The notes below the pieces were generated by a model that was not told the origin of the DNA, did not search any database, and worked only from the letters and a program-made list of their open reading frames with translations. A program made the translations under genes and the position numbers. Below are positions 44,209-50,685 of a stretch of DNA of 64,000 nt, piece by piece; within the stretch, counting starts at the first letter, position 1, and each line of letters opens with the position of its first letter. The stretch is from Janthinobacterium sp. SUN073 (GTDB lineage Bacteria; Pseudomonadota; Gammaproteobacteria; Burkholderiales; Burkholderiaceae_D), in contig NZ_JAPUBT010000001.1 in NCBI RefSeq assembly GCF_030397665.1, positions 493,926 to 557,925 of the forward strand, read 5' to 3'.

Positions 44209-45438
44209 ATGTGTGACAAAGACCAGTCCCTGCCCGTCATCAGCAATTGTTCCAGCGGCGAGGCCGAAACGGCCGCGCTCGCTTCGCGCCGCCGCAGGCT
44301 GTGGGAACTGTCGCACACCTGCCATTGCCCGCTGGTCGGCGTGGGTTTGCCATTAGGATACCTGCGCAAGCTGGTGGGCAAGATGACGGGCGGACGCGTG
44401 CTGGCCGACGACTACGAAGTGCACGTAGGTGCCGTGACGGAATGCGGGGTGCGCAACCGCCTGTCCGAAGCCCTGCAAAAGGAACTCGAACGCCGCTACG
44501 CTCCCGTCATCCTGCGCTTTCGCGGCGCCAAGACCACGCAACAAGTGGCCGAACTGTGGCGCACGGCCGTCGCCAACGGCGACGTGTCGGGCGCCTTCTG
44601 GGCCGGCCTGACGCACCCGCGCTGCGACGCCGAGCTGGAAGAGCAGATGTGCCGCGATTTGCACATGATTCAGCACCAGGCCGGTGCCTGCGTGCGGGCC
44701 GACATGGGAAAATTTACGGCCTTGCAGGAAGAAAATGCGCGCCTGGCACACGAACTGGCCAAGCTGCAACAGCGCAGCCAGGCCATGCTGATGGAAAAGA
44801 CGGGCGAGCTGGAACGCCAGGAAGCCGTGCTGCTGCGCACGCGGGCCGAATCCATTGGCAAGGATAGCGTCATCGATGGTTTGCGCCTTGATCTGGCGCA
44901 GCTGCAGGCCGCCATCCCCGCACTGGAATCGCGCACGCGCCTGGTCGAGCGCCTGGCGCAAATGGATGAGCGCGAAAAGGAACTACGCCAGCAAATCGCG
45001 GAATTGAAGCAGGCCCAGCCACGCCCGGCCGCCGCCGTGCCGCCACCGGCACCGAAGCTGGAAGTGCCGACGGGCGGCAAGCTGAAAATGCCGATCCGCC
45101 TGGTCGATCAAAGCGTCTTGTGCGTGGGTGGCCGCAGCGGCAATGTCGCCACCTACCGCGCCCTGATCGAGCGGGTCGGCGCGCAGTTCGCCCACCACGA
45201 CGGCGGCCTGGAAGACAATGCCAACCTGCTCGATTCGAGCCTGGCGGCGGCCGACCTGGTGATTTGCCAGACGGGCTGCATCAGCCACAGCGCCTACTGG
45301 CGCGTGAAGGATTATTGCAAGCGCACGGGCAAGCGCTGCGTCTTCATCGACAACCCCAGCATTTCCAGCCTGGCGCGCGGCTTGCAGGAAGTGAGCGGCG
45401 AGATGGAAGCGACGCCGCTGGCCACGCTCCAGCCGTAA
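44209..45438 (+). CDS. DUF2325 domain-containing protein
   Basis: Cytoplasmic protein of 409 residues. N-terminal region (about 1-160) contains several Cys and His (CHCPLVGVGLPLGYL), a coiled coil spans about 165-270 (many Glu, Gln, Leu), and the C-terminal DUF2325 domain (about 298-395) reads VDQSVLCVGGRSGNVATYRALIERVG, FAHHDGGLEDN, then DLVICQTGCISHSAYW and KRTGKRCVFIDNPS. DUF2325 proteins are uncharacterised; the domain looks Rossmann-like with conserved Cys and Ser. Position behind hemP suggests a role in iron or haem handling, but this is inference. It converges on the flavoprotein gene with a 15-bp gap. Confidence 0.82.
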   Translation: MCDKDQSLPVISNCSSGEAETAALASRRRRLWELSHTCHCPLVGVGLPLGYLRKLVGKMTGGRVLADDYEVHVGAVTECGVRNRLSEALQKELERRYAPVILRFRGAKTTQQVAELWRTAVANGDVSGAFWAGLTHPRCDAELEEQMCRDLHMIQHQAGACVRADMGKFTALQEENARLAHELAKLQQRSQAMLMEKTGELERQEAVLLRTRAESIGKDSVIDGLRLDLAQLQAAIPALESRTRLVERLAQMDEREKELRQQIAELKQAQPRPAAAVPPPAPKLEVPTGGKLKMPIRLVDQSVLCVGGRSGNVATYRALIERVGAQFAHHDGGLEDNANLLDSSLAAADLVICQTGCISHSAYWRVKDYCKRTGKRCVFIDNPSISSLARGLQEVSGEMEATPLATLQP

Positions 45439-45453: not shown

Positions 45454-46818
45454 TTAATACACGTCGCGCCGGTAGCGCCCCTCGGCCGCCAGCGCATCGA
45501 GCACGGGCCGACCCAGCATCTCCTGCAGGGCCTGGTCGACGCCGCCCGCCATGCCGGCCAGGCTGCCGCAAATATAGATGGCCGCGCCCTGCTGCAGCCA
45601 CAATGTGATTTCATCGGCATTGCCGCGCAGGCGGTCCTGCACGTAGGTGCGCTCGGCCTGGTCGCGCGAAAACGCCAGGTCCAGGCGCGGCAAGTCACCG
45701 CTGGCGTGCCAGTGTTCAATCTCTTCGCGATAATGGAAATCGTGGGCCGCGTTGCGCTCGCCAAAGATCAGCCAGTTGCGCCGCTGCCCCGCCAGCACGC
45801 GGCTTTTCAAATGCCCGCGCAAGCCGGCGATGCCGCTGCCGTTGCCGATCAAAATCAAGGGCCGCTGGGCATTATCTTCCAGGCGAAAGCGTTTGTGCTG
45901 GCGCAGGCGCAGTTGCACCACGTCACCGACTGCGGCTTGCGCCGTGAGCCAGCCAGAAGCCAGGCCCAGGCTGCCATCGGGATGCGCATGCTGGCGCACC
46001 AGCAAGTGCACGCCGCCATCGGGCGGAATCGAGGCGATCGAATATTCGCGCGGTTGCGATGGGTCGGCCGGCGCGGCCACTTGCACCAGGTCGCCCGACT
46101 GCCAATCCGGCAAGCTGCCTGCCACGGGCGCCAGTTCCACATGATAGATGGCGCCGCCCGCGCTGCCCGGATTGAGCAACTGCCGCTGCATCAATTTCCA
46201 GTCGCCGAAGGCGGGGGCGCTCCAGTCCGGCGCGTCGCTGGTGCCGGCCAGGTGGCTCAGGTGCTGGAACCATTGTTCGATGGCGGCGCTGGCGCTGCGG
46301 TCGACCTCGATGCGTTCGAACAGGCGCGCGGCGCCCTGCCTGGCCAGCCAGGCATCGAGCGCGCGGCCGAAGCCGCAAAACTGGCCATAGCTGCGGTCGC
46401 CCAGGGCCAGCACGGCGTAATGCAATTGCGGCAGCGCCAGTTCGCCCGTCATCAGGCGGCCCATGAAAGCGGCGGCATTGTCGGGCGCATCGCCTTCGCC
46501 ATACGTGCTGACCAGGAACAGGGCCCGTTCCGCTTGTTGCAGATCAAGGGCCGTGAGTTCGGCCAGCGCGCACAGGCGCACGGGGATGCCGGCCAGTTGC
46601 AGGCTGCGCGCCGTTTGCGTGGCCAGCTCCTCGGCATTGCCCGTCTGGCTCGCATACGCCACCAGCCAGGCGCGATTGTTGGCCAGCGCCGCCCTGGCGG
46701 CAGCGGACGCGCGGCGCTTCGCGCGCGCGCGCAGCCAGGGCGCCAGGCATACGCCCGCGTAGCTGAGGGACAAGGTGGCCAGCAAGGCCAGCCGCGTCGT
46801 ATCGTGCGTAAAAATCAT
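45454..46818 (-). CDS. Membrane-anchored flavodoxin/ferredoxin-NADP reductase-type flavoprotein
   Basis: Sulfite-reductase-alpha-like diflavin reductase of 454 residues. A single N-terminal membrane helix (about 8-29) anchors it with the rest in the cytoplasm. Flavodoxin domain about 50-190 (VAYASQTGNAEELATQTA, LVSTYGEGDAPDNAAAFM, LALGDRSYGQFCGFG). FAD/NADPH reductase domain about 205-454 (REYSIASIPPDG, LILIGNGSGIAGLRGHL, YICGSLAGMAGGVDQAL). It should take electrons from NADPH through FAD to FMN. It is the last gene of the Fur-headed PepSY-DUF2271-DUF4198-apbE unit, 13 bp after apbE, and is the likely cytoplasmic electron input. Confidence 0.88.
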   Translation of the reverse strand: MIFTHDTTRLALLATLSLSYAGVCLAPWLRARAKRRASAAARAALANNRAWLVAYASQTGNAEELATQTARSLQLAGIPVRLCALAELTALDLQQAERALFLVSTYGEGDAPDNAAAFMGRLMTGELALPQLHYAVLALGDRSYGQFCGFGRALDAWLARQGAARLFERIEVDRSASAAIEQWFQHLSHLAGTSDAPDWSAPAFGDWKLMQRQLLNPGSAGGAIYHVELAPVAGSLPDWQSGDLVQVAAPADPSQPREYSIASIPPDGGVHLLVRQHAHPDGSLGLASGWLTAQAAVGDVVQLRLRQHKRFRLEDNAQRPLILIGNGSGIAGLRGHLKSRVLAGQRRNWLIFGERNAAHDFHYREEIEHWHASGDLPRLDLAFSRDQAERTYVQDRLRGNADEITLWLQQGAAIYICGSLAGMAGGVDQALQEMLGRPVLDALAAEGRYRRDVY

Positions 46819-46831
46819 GGGGAATAAATGT

Positions 46832-47860
46832 TCATTCGTCGAGCATGGCCAGCATGTGGCTGCTCAGCGTTTCGTGGTAGCCATCGCCGTCGCGCCGCAG
46901 GAAGCGCGCGGCCAGGCCCTGCTCTTCGGCCAGCGCCATGCCGGCGTCTGGGCCCAACACCGTCAGGGCCGTCGACCAGGCATCGGCCGCCATGCATTGC
47001 TCATGCACGACAGTGACGGAAGCGAGTTGATTGGCGATCGGCATGCCGCTGCGCGGATCGATCGTATGGGAAAAACGCACTGTGCCGTCCTGGAAGAAAC
47101 GCCGATAGTCGCCCGAGGTGGCCACGGAGAGGCCGTGCAGCGCCAGCAACAGTTCCGGCGGATGCTGTGCGGCATCCGCACCATCGACCTGTTCCAGCAT
47201 CACCCACCACGGCTGGCCGTCGGGCTTGCTGCCGGCGCCGCGCAGCTCGCCCCCCACTTCGACCAGGTAATGGCCGATGCCCTGGCTGTCCAGGTAGCGG
47301 GCCAGGCGGTCCACGCCATAGCCCTTGGCCACGGCCGACAAATCGAGTTGCAAGCCACCGGGCTGGCGCGCGCGGCGGGCCGGCAAGTCCAGCTCCAGGC
47401 GGCGGCGCTGGCGCTGCGACAGCAGCAAGGCCAGCGTATCGTCTTTCGGCGGCAGGAAGCCCGGTTCATCGTAGCGATTGCGGGGGCCGAAGCCCCACAG
47501 GTTGACGAGGGTGCCCGCGCACGGGTCGTACGCGCCACCGGACGCTTGCGACACGTGCATGGCAAAGCCCAGCACCTCGCAAAAGGCGGCGGGCAGGCTG
47601 TGCCAGCTGCCGGGCTCGGCCCGGTTGAAGCGGCCCAGGTCGGAGTCGTCGCTCCAGTGGCTCATTTGCGCCACGACCAGGTCCAGCTGTTGCTGCAAAC
47701 CCTGCTGCAAGTCGGCGCTGCCGGCGCGGCCCGGCATGGCGGATTCGACCAGACGCACCGACCAGCTGGTGCCCATGGTCAGACCGCGCAAGTCCCGGAT
47801 CGCGGCGCCGGGCGGCGCGACCTGATCGGAAATATGCTGCGGCAGCAGGACCCGGCGCAT
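46832..47860 (-). CDS. apbE: FAD:protein FMN transferase (ApbE family)
   Basis: Transfers FMN from FAD to a Thr or Ser of target proteins. It has 342 residues with the family landmarks LTMGTSWSVRLVES near 27-40, QLDLVVAQMSHWSDDSDLGRFN, SGGAYDPCAGTLVNLWGFG, QLDLSAVAKGYGVDRLARYL, LVEVGGELRGAG and SHTIDPRSGMPIANQLASVTV. Unlike most ApbE proteins, no signal peptide or lipobox is visible in the first 35 residues (MRRVLLPQHISDQVAPPG), which matters for where flavinylation happens. The DUF2271 protein two genes upstream has a candidate target motif. Same unit as the reductase and DUF4198 genes. Confidence 0.92.
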   Translation of the reverse strand: MRRVLLPQHISDQVAPPGAAIRDLRGLTMGTSWSVRLVESAMPGRAGSADLQQGLQQQLDLVVAQMSHWSDDSDLGRFNRAEPGSWHSLPAAFCEVLGFAMHVSQASGGAYDPCAGTLVNLWGFGPRNRYDEPGFLPPKDDTLALLLSQRQRRRLELDLPARRARQPGGLQLDLSAVAKGYGVDRLARYLDSQGIGHYLVEVGGELRGAGSKPDGQPWWVMLEQVDGADAAQHPPELLLALHGLSVATSGDYRRFFQDGTVRFSHTIDPRSGMPIANQLASVTVVHEQCMAADAWSTALTVLGPDAGMALAEEQGLAARFLRRDGDGYHETLSSHMLAMLDE

Positions 47861-47886
47861 CGGCGAGCTCGTAAAGAGGCCGCCGC

Positions 47887-48711
47887 TTACTGCGGCAGCA
47901 CTTCCACGGTGGCCGCGTACGTCATGCGGCGCTCGGGCATGGTTGGCGCCTGACCGGCCACGGCCGGTGTGGCCGCCGGCCAGGTGCTGCTCAGGTAATA
48001 CATGCCGGCTGCCGGCACCGTAAACGTGATCTCGCCCTTGGCATCGGTGCTCTGGCGGATTTCACCCAGCACGCCACGGTAGCGCACGCCGCCTGGCACC
48101 AGGCTGAAGGCCTGGTTCGCCGCCGGCTTGCCGTCGACCAGGAAGCGCCACGTGGCTTTTTCGCCCGCGCGCAAGTCGTTCGGATGCGTCACTGGTACGA
48201 ATTCCAAGCCCACGCCCGTCGGCTTGAACACTTCCGTGCTGGTTTCGCCATTGCTGAAGAAAGTTTCCAGGCGGCTGGCCGTGCGCGTGATTTTCACGTC
48301 TTGCGCATCGGCCGGCATGTCTTTCTTGAAGGTTTCCTCGTTGCCACGGAAACGCTTCTGCTCGCCATTTTGCTTGTAGCTGGCCATCACGTTTTGCGAC
48401 ACGATGGCCGCCTTGTACGTGCCCGGTTTTTCCATCTTCACATCGAAGACGCTGCGCAAGCGGCCCGTGACGGTATTCGCCGGCGCCACTTTCGCGCCAT
48501 CGGGACCGATGACTTGCAGCGCATCCAGGCGCAGCGGCTGGTGGTCGATCTCGAACAGGCCATCGGAGACGGCCGCGTCCACCGTCACCCAGGCGTCCTT
48601 GCTTTCCACCATCGTGCTCGATGGCACCATCCAGCCCCGGTGGGCGTGGGCGTTCATTGCCAGGCCGGCCAGGACCAGGGCGATCAGGGGCTTATTGAGT
48701 TGCTTGAACAT
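47887..48711 (-). CDS. DUF4198 periplasmic protein
   Basis: Exported protein of 274 residues from MFKQLNKPLIALVLAGLAMNA, cleaved after A-H-A before HRGWMVPS. DUF4198 members look like beta-sandwich periplasmic proteins of the type linked to nickel, cobalt or iron handling; here HRGWMVPSSTMVE at the mature start and FEIDHQPLRLDALQVIGPDG are typical, and the C-terminus (SPATPAVAG-like, MTYAATVEVLPQ) is extracellular-like. The mature N-terminal histidine is a possible metal ligand. The ATG at 48711 has AAGG upstream; the longer frame overlaps the DUF2271 stop. Exact role unknown. Confidence 0.85.
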   Translation of the reverse strand: MFKQLNKPLIALVLAGLAMNAHAHRGWMVPSSTMVESKDAWVTVDAAVSDGLFEIDHQPLRLDALQVIGPDGAKVAPANTVTGRLRSVFDVKMEKPGTYKAAIVSQNVMASYKQNGEQKRFRGNEETFKKDMPADAQDVKITRTASRLETFFSNGETSTEVFKPTGVGLEFVPVTHPNDLRAGEKATWRFLVDGKPAANQAFSLVPGGVRYRGVLGEIRQSTDAKGEITFTVPAAGMYYLSSTWPAATPAVAGQAPTMPERRMTYAATVEVLPQ

Positions 48712-48721
48712 GATGTGCGCC

Positions 48722-49237
48722 TTATGGTTTGAGTTGGACGACGACATTGCCGAGTTCTTCCTTGCCTTTGGCAGGAACGGACTGGGCCGATTTCAGCGGC
48801 CACTGGAACGGCACGCGCACCAGTTCGCGTCCACCCGCTTCGCGCGCCGCTTCCACCACCACCTGGTATTCGCCAGCCGGCAGCTTGTCGAGCAAGGCCT
48901 TGGCACCGGGGAAAGTCAGCGTATGTTCGCCCGGCGCACGCGTGGCGCCACTGACGCCATCGACGGGCATGGCCAGGTCGCGGCCGCTCTTGCGCCACCA
49001 TTGACGCATGTCCTTCAGCCATTTCTCGCCTGCCTTGTCCTTCTTTTTCACGTCATACAGCACCGTCAGGTTGCCGACCACCTTTTGATCGGCCGTTTCC
49101 AGCCACGCCGCCACGTAGGGACGGTGATATTCCGCCACGTTCAGTTGCGGGATTTCAAGCTTGAGGGCCAGATCGGCCGCCATCGCCGACGTACCGATCA
49201 GGGGAAGGCCAAGCGCCAGGGAGTAGCGTAATTTCAT
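48722..49237 (-). CDS. DUF2271 periplasmic protein with a flavinylation motif
   Basis: Exported protein of 171 residues, signal peptide MKLRYSLALGLPLIGTSAMA cleaved before ADLALKLEIP. The DUF2271 domain fills the rest: PYVAAWLETADQKVVGNLTVLYD, KWLKDMRQWWRKSGRD. At residues 93-99 it has D-G-V-S-G-A-T, matching the D-x-x-S-G-A-T/S pattern that ApbE modifies in NqrC, RnfG and FMN-bind proteins; T99 would carry FMN. An apbE gene is in the same unit. So the protein is probably a periplasmic FMN electron carrier, perhaps a ferric reductase component. The motif is seen; the modification is inferred. Confidence 0.87.
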   Translation of the reverse strand: MKLRYSLALGLPLIGTSAMAADLALKLEIPQLNVAEYHRPYVAAWLETADQKVVGNLTVLYDVKKKDKAGEKWLKDMRQWWRKSGRDLAMPVDGVSGATRAPGEHTLTFPGAKALLDKLPAGEYQVVVEAAREAGGRELVRVPFQWPLKSAQSVPAKGKEELGNVVVQLKP

Positions 49238-49270
49238 GGTGTGCCTGTAAAAAGGAAAAAATAAAAACGA

Positions 49271-49924
49271 TCAGTGAATAAACAGCAAGGCGATCGCGCA
49301 AGGTATCAAGATACCGAGGCCAACCATCGGCCAGGTAAATGGCCGGTTGGCCGCGTGGAACTTCAAAATCAATAGCCCCGTCAGGCAAAACACGATGCAG
49401 GCGCCGGCAAAAATGTCGATGAACCAGCTCCAGGCCACGCCCGTGTTGCGGCCCTTGTGCACATCGTTGAGCCAGGACACCCAGCCCCGGTCCGTCAATT
49501 CATATTCGGCGGCCCCGTCTTCCAGGCCGATGCGCACCCAGGCGTCGCCACCCGCCTTGGGCAACGGCAGGTAGACTTCGTCGACGCTCCATTCGGCGGG
49601 ACGGCCACCCGCATTGAGCGACCATTGCTGCTTGAGCCAGGTCTCGGCGGCGGCCGGCATGGGCGCGTTGGCGCCATCGTGCTGGGCGGCATACGCGGCC
49701 AGTTGCGTGACCAAAGGGGCAGGCAACGTCGCCTGCTGGCGCGTGATCGCCGGCTTCGCTTCGATCTGGCCGGCGTGGTTCAGGGTGATGCCGGTAATGG
49801 CGAACAGAAACATTCCCAGCAGGCAAAGCGCCGAGCTGATCCAGTGCCATTGATGCAAATTCTTCAGCCAGACGGCGCGGCTGGCGTTGTTCCTGGCCTT
49901 GTCTGCGGCGCCCGCATTACCCAT
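49271..49924 (-). CDS. PepSY-associated transmembrane protein
   Basis: Inner-membrane protein of 217 residues from the ATG at 49924, which has GGGAG seven bases upstream. One helix at about 29-50 (WISSALCLLGMFLFAITGITLNH) leads to a periplasmic PepSY-like domain (about 55-150), then two helices at about 160-183 and 192-214. Histidines flanking the helices (LHQWHW, TLNHAG, NDVHKGRNTG) could bind haem, as in related PepSY membrane proteins involved in siderophore or iron reduction. First gene of the minus-strand unit, with a palindromic Fur box 96 bp upstream. Proposed job: move electrons from the cytoplasmic reductase to the periplasmic DUF2271 flavoprotein. Confidence 0.83.
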   Translation of the reverse strand: MGNAGAADKARNNASRAVWLKNLHQWHWISSALCLLGMFLFAITGITLNHAGQIEAKPAITRQQATLPAPLVTQLAAYAAQHDGANAPMPAAAETWLKQQWSLNAGGRPAEWSVDEVYLPLPKAGGDAWVRIGLEDGAAEYELTDRGWVSWLNDVHKGRNTGVAWSWFIDIFAGACIVFCLTGLLILKFHAANRPFTWPMVGLGILIPCAIALLFIH

Positions 49925-50019
49925 CAATCGCTCCCGGCAAGGAGCGGGCCAGGTGGCGCGACAAGTCAGTGTGCTTCATTCCCATCCTTCAATCAAAGTG
50001 CATGCTGATATTTTCAAAC

Positions 50020-50040
50020 AAATGATAATGATTATCATTT
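50020..50040 (-). promoter_or_regulatory. Palindromic Fur box upstream of the PepSY unit
   Basis: Perfect ten-base arms, AAATGATAAT and ATTATCATTT, around one central G. This is close to the classical Fur site and lies about 96 bp before the PepSY gene start. It is also 148 bp before the divergent split-barrel gene. Confidence 0.9.
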
Positions 50041-50187
50041 ATTAAGTCAATACATGGGGCGCCCCGCCGGGCCAGCGTTTTGTAACAGCTTTGAAACAAA
50101 GCTGGCCTGCTACGTAAGCTGCCGTACAGAGCAGCATGCAGCAAGCGCCTATGCTTGTTGTTCAGGACAACCAACAAGGGAGCACCC

Positions 50188-50685
50188 ATGCAAGCGTATT
50201 CCAGCGAACAACTGGCCAGCATCGCGGCCAGGATCAAGGACGTCAAATTCGGCATGCTGACCACCAGCGACGACATGCGCACCCTCACCAGCCGGCCCCT
50301 GACGCAGCAGCAGGTCGACAACGACGGGCAAATCTGGTTCTTTGTTTCGGACGAGGCCGCCTACACGCGCGACTTGCTGAACAATCCGCAAGTCAATGTC
50401 AGCTTCGTCGACACGGGCGACAGCCTGTATGTGTCCGTCTGCGGCCATGCACAGTTGCTGAAGGACCGCGCCAAGGCGGAGGAATTGTGGAACCCGCTGG
50501 TGAAAGCCTGGTTCCCGGGCGGACTCGACGATCCGAAACTGTCGCTGATCAAGGTGACGATCCAGTCGGCCGAGTATTGGGACAGCAGCGCCAGCAAGAT
50601 GATGCAATTCTATGCAATGGCCAAGGCGGCCATCACGGGCGAGCCGCCGAAAGACCTGGGTGAACACGGCCGGGTCGACCTGTAG
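50188..50685 (+). CDS. Pyridoxamine 5'-phosphate oxidase-related split-barrel protein (general stress protein 26-like)
   Basis: FMN-binding split-barrel protein of 165 residues from MQAYSSEQLASIAARI, with AAGGGAG before the start. Visible features are IKDVKFGMLTTSDDMRTLTSRPL at the FMN site, GQIWFFVSDEAAYTRDLLNNPQVNVSF and VSVCGHAQLLKDRAKAEELWN. It matches the general stress protein 26 branch rather than PdxH. Substrate is unknown; roles in oxidative stress or flavin handling are suspected. The upstream gap holds the Fur box and a CAGCTTTG/CAAAGCTG hairpin. Confidence 0.85.
   Translation: MQAYSSEQLASIAARIKDVKFGMLTTSDDMRTLTSRPLTQQQVDNDGQIWFFVSDEAAYTRDLLNNPQVNVSFVDTGDSLYVSVCGHAQLLKDRAKAEELWNPLVKAWFPGGLDDPKLSLIKVTIQSAEYWDSSASKMMQFYAMAKAAITGEPPKDLGEHGRVDL

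Follow-up and report, generated by a model that had tools for sequence, protein, structure and literature searches.

A Fur-headed operon in Janthinobacterium sp. SUN073: a candidate electron path to a periplasmic flavoprotein and a leaderless ApbE

By what route could a bacterium that is short of iron pass electrons from nicotinamide adenine dinucleotide phosphate (NADPH) to ferric iron outside its inner membrane, and on which side of that membrane would the flavin for such a route be attached? These questions are raised by an operon in a 64,000-nt stretch of Janthinobacterium sp. SUN073 (contig NZ_JAPUBT010000001.1, positions 493,926–557,925), hereafter the window, whose numbering is used for coordinates throughout. 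From 49927 to 45454, five minus-strand genes follow directly on one another and encode, in order, a PepSY membrane protein, a DUF2271 protein, a DUF4198 protein, ApbE and a diflavin reductase. We consider, with a probability of about three in four, that they form a Fur-repressed transmembrane electron-transfer operon that serves iron assimilation. A sequence-only reading of this DNA had listed the same parts and coordinates, and both were confirmed by gene calls and Pfam matches. The features are as follows, with flavin mononucleotide and flavin adenine dinucleotide abbreviated as FMN and FAD.

49271–49927, minus strand: PepSY_TM_like_2 membrane protein (Pfam and alignment), start at ATG 49924 or TTG 49927
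48722–49237, minus strand: exported DUF2271 protein, motif DGVSGAT, predicted FMN acceptor Thr99
47887–48711, minus strand: DUF4198 protein with a Sec-type signal peptide; ATG at 48711 preferred, longest open reading frame (ORF) starting at 48747
46832–47860, minus strand: ApbE, FAD:protein FMN transferase without signal peptide, N-terminus MRRVLLP
45454–46818, minus strand: CysJ-like diflavin reductase, with an N-terminal hydrophobic stretch, a flavodoxin domain and an FAD/NADP reductase domain
50020–50040, minus strand: putative Fur box, a perfect 10-1-10 palindrome, the sole copy in the genome without a mismatch
50022–50050, minus strand: sigma-70-like promoter TTGACT-17-TATCAT, 10 of 12 consensus bases

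The Fur box and the five-gene set

All five operon proteins passed the curated Pfam cut-offs. Assuming that the DUF4198 gene starts at 48711, the gaps between the genes measure just 10–33 bp, and a single transcript is therefore likely. Ahead of the operon, the sequence-only reading had reported a perfect 21-bp Fur palindrome, which was located at 50020–50040 as AAATGATAAT-C-ATTATCATTT, two ten-base arms around one base without a mismatch. The palindrome overlaps the -10 element and most of the spacer of the TTGACT-17-TATCAT promoter (50050–50022), such that a putative Fur box lies over the promoter, as in a Fur regulon. When the window was scanned with a 19-base sequence that we take to be the Fur consensus, allowing up to three mismatches, there was one match in the 64 kb (at three mismatches) and none in 100 shuffles. 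Genome-wide, the pattern AATGATAATNATTATCATT with up to three mismatches identified 27 sites versus one for the reversed pattern, and the operon palindrome was the only site with no mismatch.

Loci were retrieved for 15 of the 27 Fur-like sites, that of the window included. Of the remaining 14, nine supplied ten proteins that were chosen by eye, once the ORFs had been read, and submitted to Pfam; five loci were left unscanned. Beside the scanned sites were FeoA (one site), TonB-dependent receptors (four sites) and small sigma-70-family proteins (three sites), the last of which we read as extracytoplasmic function (ECF) type by their size; the ninth locus had a LysR regulator and one picked protein had no Pfam match. 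Iron-type genes (feoA, TonB-receptor or sigma-factor genes) were thus found at eight of the 14 other fetched sites, five of the 14 being unscanned. In addition, a full-length match to feoB lay ~0.7 kb beyond the feoA-side site. Because weaker copies of the palindrome precede feoA, TonB-receptor and sigma-factor genes, the palindrome reads as a Fur box, one that the Fe(II) importer also appears to carry. Elsewhere in the genome of the window, a Fur-like site (in G000:C1:915365-922084) is followed after ~5 kb by a further DUF4198-like gene and a PepSY_TM gene of full size, probably another iron-uptake unit.

The conservation of the locus was assessed in two sets. The first, of close relatives, comprised 80 loci, the best of at least 480 obtained when genome contigs were scanned with DUF2271, those named being from Oxalobacteraceae, Cupriavidus and other Burkholderiales. 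The order PepSY-DUF2271-DUF4198-ApbE-reductase was present in 75 of the 80, the exceptions being three Oxalicibacterium-type loci with two DUF2271 and two DUF4198 genes per cluster (L092, L094 and L096) and two loci interrupted by contig ends (L051 and L104). In short same-genus loci that end before the reductase (L001–L030, of which L019 is the window's own), the first four genes were found in 30 of 30. Among the matches listed, the ten best named loci for the window's DUF2271 were all from Janthinobacterium, at 97–100% identity. Upstream of the PepSY gene, a site matching at least 14 of the 19 bases was found in 68 of the 80 loci, and at least 15 in 54, as compared with a best score of no more than 14 in control stretches of the same loci; the 12 loci that scored below 14 were six from Cupriavidus and six other distant ones. 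The second set was drawn from 398 genomes spread evenly over the phylum, of which 65 had a DUF2271 above the cut-off; 60 DUF2271 loci were fetched from 59 of these 65 and sorted by profiles built from the first 80. The complete set of five was present in 23 of the 60 (including L189, where it is scattered), eight lacked apbE, eight had no detected reductase, eight lacked both, and the remainder were of other or fused types. The expectation that the five genes co-occur in other genomes therefore held among near relatives and for only a part of the loci across the phylum.

A candidate electron path and its rivals

From the features observed here, namely gene content, conservation, Fur box, conserved residues and leader status, we infer the electron-transfer steps, the substrate and the metal of DUF4198 as follows. 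When iron is low, Fur would leave the promoter and the five proteins would be made. The membrane-anchored diflavin reductase would pass electrons from NADPH through FAD and then FMN to the PepSY protein, whose two bis-histidine b haems would relay them across the inner membrane to an FMN that is covalently attached, putatively by ApbE, to the periplasmic DUF2271. Ferric iron or a ferric chelate would be reduced by DUF2271, the DUF4198 protein would be a periplasmic binder of a divalent metal, which could plausibly be the Fe(II) formed, and uptake of Fe(II) would be by FeoAB. A path of this kind, from NADPH to a periplasmic FMN and on to ferric iron, had been put forward in the sequence-only reading; it still stands as a proposal, and is close to one for PepSY-like flavinylation clusters in the available text of PMC8238504.

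Consistent with its place at the start of the path, the reductase had a single N-terminal hydrophobic stretch (residues 11–29) and matched Flavodoxin_1 (1.9e-28) and NAD_binding_1 (1.6e-09), which upholds its description as a membrane-anchored diflavin reductase, its activity being predicted. Against the NCBIfam CysJ profile it scored 3.5e-79 and 267 bits, short of the equivalog cut-off of 668 bits, and it is predicted to work like CysJ without being a member of that family. Residues S384, R385, Y392, Q394 and the terminal Y454 were nearly invariant in the Burkholderiales alignment; these presumably resemble the NADPH and flavin positions of cytochrome P450 reductase (CPR) and CysJ. A separate scoring of the reductases covered 74 of 78.

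The PepSY protein matched PepSY_TM_like_2 (1.7e-78) and PepSY_TM (2.2e-10) and had three long predicted helices able to span the membrane, the first two separated by ~105 residues. Near the ends of these helices were four candidate haem ligands, in agreement with the earlier description of helix-flanking histidines. Conservation among 81 Burkholderiales proteins was 80 for each of His28, His157 and His191 and 77 for His51, and in the phylum sample His28 and His157 were kept in 48 of 48. These residues would form a pair at each membrane face (His28/His191 and His51/His157), as in FoxB-type proteins, the pairing being our prediction. The final residue, His218 (codon 49274–49276), was a histidine in 80 of 81 Burkholderiales proteins and 34 of 48 across the phylum, and has a possible role at the periplasmic face. 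The PepSY alignment had no match among sequences of the Protein Data Bank (PDB) up to an E value of 10, nor was there a Foldseek match at 0.001. An identification of the protein as FoxB by sequence profile was rejected; in the fold comparison, FoxB appeared only in the VIA second look, at a level not above noise.

The FMN acceptor is predicted from a single motif. Among the five operon proteins, [ST]GA[ST] occurred once, in DUF2271 (Pfam DUF2271, 6.9e-51), as DGVSGATRA with SGAT at residues 96–99, and the earlier assignment of the ApbE motif to DUF2271 was thus upheld, with Thr99 as the predicted acceptor. A second ApbE target within the operon was rejected, as no other copy was found in the five proteins. 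The N-terminus of DUF2271, MKLRYSLALGLPLIGTSAMA-AD, was read by eye as a signal peptide, which gives the operon a putatively exported target gene; with a PF03929/PF16357 gene in the neighborhood of genes for DUF2271 and ApbE, it has the composition of a PepSY-type flavinylation cluster. A comparison of DUF2271 with PDB sequences gave no meaningful match. In the phylum sample, the acceptor position was Ser or Thr in 52 of 52 loci (L142–L193), so that no locus without apbE was seen to have lost it. The strict motif was present in 24 of these, and in the other 28 it was replaced by TGPT, SSAT, SGPT or similar; ApbE may recognize a broader motif than has been described.

The DUF4198 protein (Pfam DUF4198, 2.3e-51) has a metal-binding-protein fold, and its predicted mature N-terminus is a conserved histidine (His36 counted from the 48747 start). 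This fold and histidine, together with the absence of a leader on ApbE, had been missed in the sequence-only reading, whose account of the parts otherwise stands.

The same electron path could serve another metal, either by reducing Cu(II) for oxidase assembly or by handling Ni, Co or Zn through DUF4198. We regard this as unlikely given that the control element of the operon is the genome's best match to the Fur pattern, and that an operon of the same type in Caulobacter responds to iron and Fur in the text available of PMC3751524. Comparison with the DUF4198 metal proteins IsDUF4198 (9GCB) and Zcp (9MHI–9MHN) also speaks against it: His18, the second ligand of 9GCB, is by our own reading missing from the window's protein, in which His69 and His188 are mostly conserved instead, while His142 of Zcp (known from the entry title and the single residue that differs between two aligned Zcp sequences) was aligned to a residue other than histidine, and Zcp His29 and His31 were outside the alignment.

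It is less probable still that the operon maintains the redox state of the envelope during iron starvation, as a flavin-based stand-in for a cytochrome reductant that delivers electrons to periplasmic proteins. The replacement of cytochromes by flavinylated proteins in iron-poor settings is discussed in the portion of PMC8238504 available. However, the operon itself includes the cytochrome-like PepSY protein with haem-type histidines, DUF4198 with its metal-protein fold belongs to the five-gene set in 75 of the 80 loci, and fitness data in ethylenediaminetetraacetic acid (EDTA), as presented in the accessible part of PMC12004947, indicate iron supply. That the PepSY protein is an inner-membrane siderophore permease assisted by the other proteins, as predicted for larger Alteromonas PepSY proteins (PMC7190382, in part), is very improbable in view of its just three long helices with ~105 residues between the first two and of FoxB-type relatives being described as reductases in what is available of PMC13038864 and PMC13001220.

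The site of flavin attachment

Less expected is a mismatch within the operon: the enzyme that attaches the flavin lacks an export signal, while its target, DUF2271, is exported. The operon ApbE (Pfam ApbE, 7.1e-78) begins with MRRVLLP, the 28 residues that precede a conserved MGT include no hydrophobic stretch, and the ApbE starts in the Burkholderiales loci were of the same kind. In the window, the 11-residue hydropathy of the N-termini was 0.57 for ApbE, 1.6 for DUF2271 and 2.8 for DUF4198. With neither signal peptide nor lipobox, the enzyme belongs to the ApbE family but not to its exported type. A missed in-frame leader upstream was rejected for L049, L062, L059 and L069, which have an in-frame stop 1–5 codons before the MRRVLLP or VRRVLLP start. 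Hydropathy is a rough test for a leader, which separated ApbE well from DUF4198 and partly from DUF2271: values of at least 1.9 were found for 121 of 122 DUF4198, 56 of 132 DUF2271 (one an empty read, scored -9) and 6 of 115 ApbE regions, the six comprising one true lipoprotein leader (L158), three MHRVLIPVALAAPPP starts and two regions that reach before the likely start.

In the phylum sample, 30 genomes had a separate apbE within the operon, not counting the scattered L189, fused genes and a second operon type. Three of the 30 enzymes were left unscored because there was no ATG, GTG or TTG within 75 residues upstream. A clear leader was present in one of the 27 that were scored (L158, genome G451, a lipoprotein), and the next highest hydropathy was 1.92; DUF2271 from the same loci and ten more without apbE reached at least 1.8 in 32 of 40. 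The in-operon gene was the sole ApbE gene in 26 of the 30 genomes, and all 26 were without any protein of the classical target family, FMN_bind, the one target family that was searched (others, such as DUF3570 and NqrB/RnfD, were outside the search). Where PepSY, DUF2271, DUF4198 and the reductase occurred without apbE, a lipoprotein ApbE was found elsewhere in 8 of 8 genomes, as were FMN_bind proteins (8 of 8); for smaller clusters without apbE, the lipoprotein was found in 10 of 10 (in G393 the lipobox was read by eye), giving 18 of 18 in total. All four of the ApbE proteins fused to DUF2271 were hydrophobic at the N-terminus (1.72–2.73), and those of the second operon type, which has a large reductase-type protein, were leaderless in 7 of 7, with another ApbE in six of the seven genomes. 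Overall, ApbE was detected in 65 of 65 genomes with DUF2271 above the cut-off as compared with 225 of 333 without it (Fisher 2.6e-10, uncorrected for relatedness). The expectation that ApbE and DUF2271 go together was thereby supported at the level of the genome, and not at that of the operon, since in 18 sampled genomes ApbE lay outside it.

Several observations weigh against this association of leader and gene location. The in-operon ApbE of G186 (L262, of the scattered cluster L189) scored 2.13, without a clear signal-peptide layout. G118 and G122 have a lipoprotein ApbE elsewhere in addition to a leaderless one in the operon, and a second ApbE is present in four further genomes among the seven with the second operon type. 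Several of the 18 genomes with an operon lacking apbE have ApbE genes beyond the lipoprotein, including at least one without a clear leader in G397 (L240 and L243) and perhaps in G405 (L239). The genome of the window itself has a second ApbE, with an RR leader, which by our own reading adjoins a NosR-like gene; because of it, the rule alone cannot name the enzyme that acts there. By contrast, in five genus members that keep the operon (G003, G008, G012, G016 and G032), its ApbE is the only one.

The leaderless state of most operon ApbE proteins, set beside the export of DUF2271, suggests that flavinylation takes place in the cytosol, ahead of export. Export of DUF2271 by twin-arginine translocation (Tat) as the explanation was rejected as a general one: an RR pattern was present in 14 of 132 leader regions, of which 13 were MRRL or MRRM starts (ten Cupriavidus loci between L097 and L110, plus L142, L143 and L161), and none of the 14 had what we take to be the full Tat consensus. 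Most simply read, FMN could be added to DUF2271 at either face of the membrane, the cytosolic one being where the operon enzyme would act, prior to export. We put at even odds a fuller account, in which, for operons with a separate apbE, a cytosolic ApbE would load FMN before or during Sec export and the flavinylated chain would cross the inner membrane, with no need for a periplasmic supply of FAD; lineages with FMN_bind systems and a lipoprotein ApbE could drop the operon gene, the periplasmic enzyme acting after export, and fusion of ApbE to DUF2271 would restore the leader. Loading before export is favored by two precedents, each from a source available in part: flavinylation of DUF2271 when it and ApbE, both truncated of their signal peptides, were co-expressed in Escherichia coli (PMC8238504), and a leaderless ApbE with a cytosolic target in Klebsiella (reviewed in PMC12052999). 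No statement of the leader rule was found in the literature searched, including the available parts of PMC8238504, PMC11334425 and PMC12052999, which is not proof of its absence. The rule is the part added by this analysis, and where the flavin is attached is the point worth following.

Related systems, neighboring genes and implications

The five-gene operon and the hypothesis of ferric reduction are already known, and the Janthinobacterium copy extends a known type. The following comparisons are limited to those parts of the cited sources that were available. In Caulobacter crescentus, CC3059–CC3063 (CCNA_03155–03159) form an operon of identical family content and gene order, headed by a promoter under Fur control (PMC3751524, PMC12004947). 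Its tabulated responses to iron and fur are 12- to 51-fold, and a reporter experiment is given along with a test that is said to validate its Fur sites (PMC3751524). Insertions in that operon make cells less fit in EDTA, and it is said to have been proposed for ferric reduction in the periplasm (PMC12004947). However, Caulobacter belongs to another bacterial class, and the likeness rests on families and order, not on sequence identity or the ApbE leader. The catalogue of Meheust et al. 2021 contains PepSY-like clusters with PepSY (PF16357/PF03929), DUF2271, DUF4198 and ApbE, 2833 with DUF2271 and 1500 with DUF4198, and iron reduction was suggested for them (PMC8238504). In the same study the DUF2271 of A. 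ursilacus was flavinylated by its own ApbE at the motif Thr; the ApbE tested is described as signal-peptide-truncated and hence seemingly has a leader, unlike that of the window. PepSY proteins are connected with the reduction of ferrisiderophores through FoxB and HiuB (PMC13038864, PMC13001220). These reductases and VciB share with the window's operon a PepSY-type membrane protein, and FoxB and HiuB also have conserved histidines at both faces. In comparison with the larger FoxB, the window's PepSY protein has a single small periplasmic domain besides its three long helices, has DUF2271 and the reductase as partners, and gave only a weak fold match to FoxB (7ABW).

Two genes flank the operon. 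At 50155–50685 on the plus strand, a gene of Pyrid_ox_like (PNPOx) type runs divergently from the intergenic region that contains the Fur box, and may come under the same control; a relative was present in 39 of the 80 related loci, on the opposite strand and directly upstream in the 30 cases listed. At the other end, a DUF2325 gene (44209–45438, plus strand) converges on the operon, with 15 bases between its end and the stop of the reductase gene.

For this genus of soil and water, the operon provides a complete, compact and putatively Fur-controlled candidate for NADPH-driven ferric reduction, headed by the genome's best match to the Fur pattern. The leader rule, in turn, makes it testable where an exported flavoprotein gets its FMN, as the same substrate family is seemingly loaded by a leaderless enzyme or by a lipoprotein, depending on the lineage.

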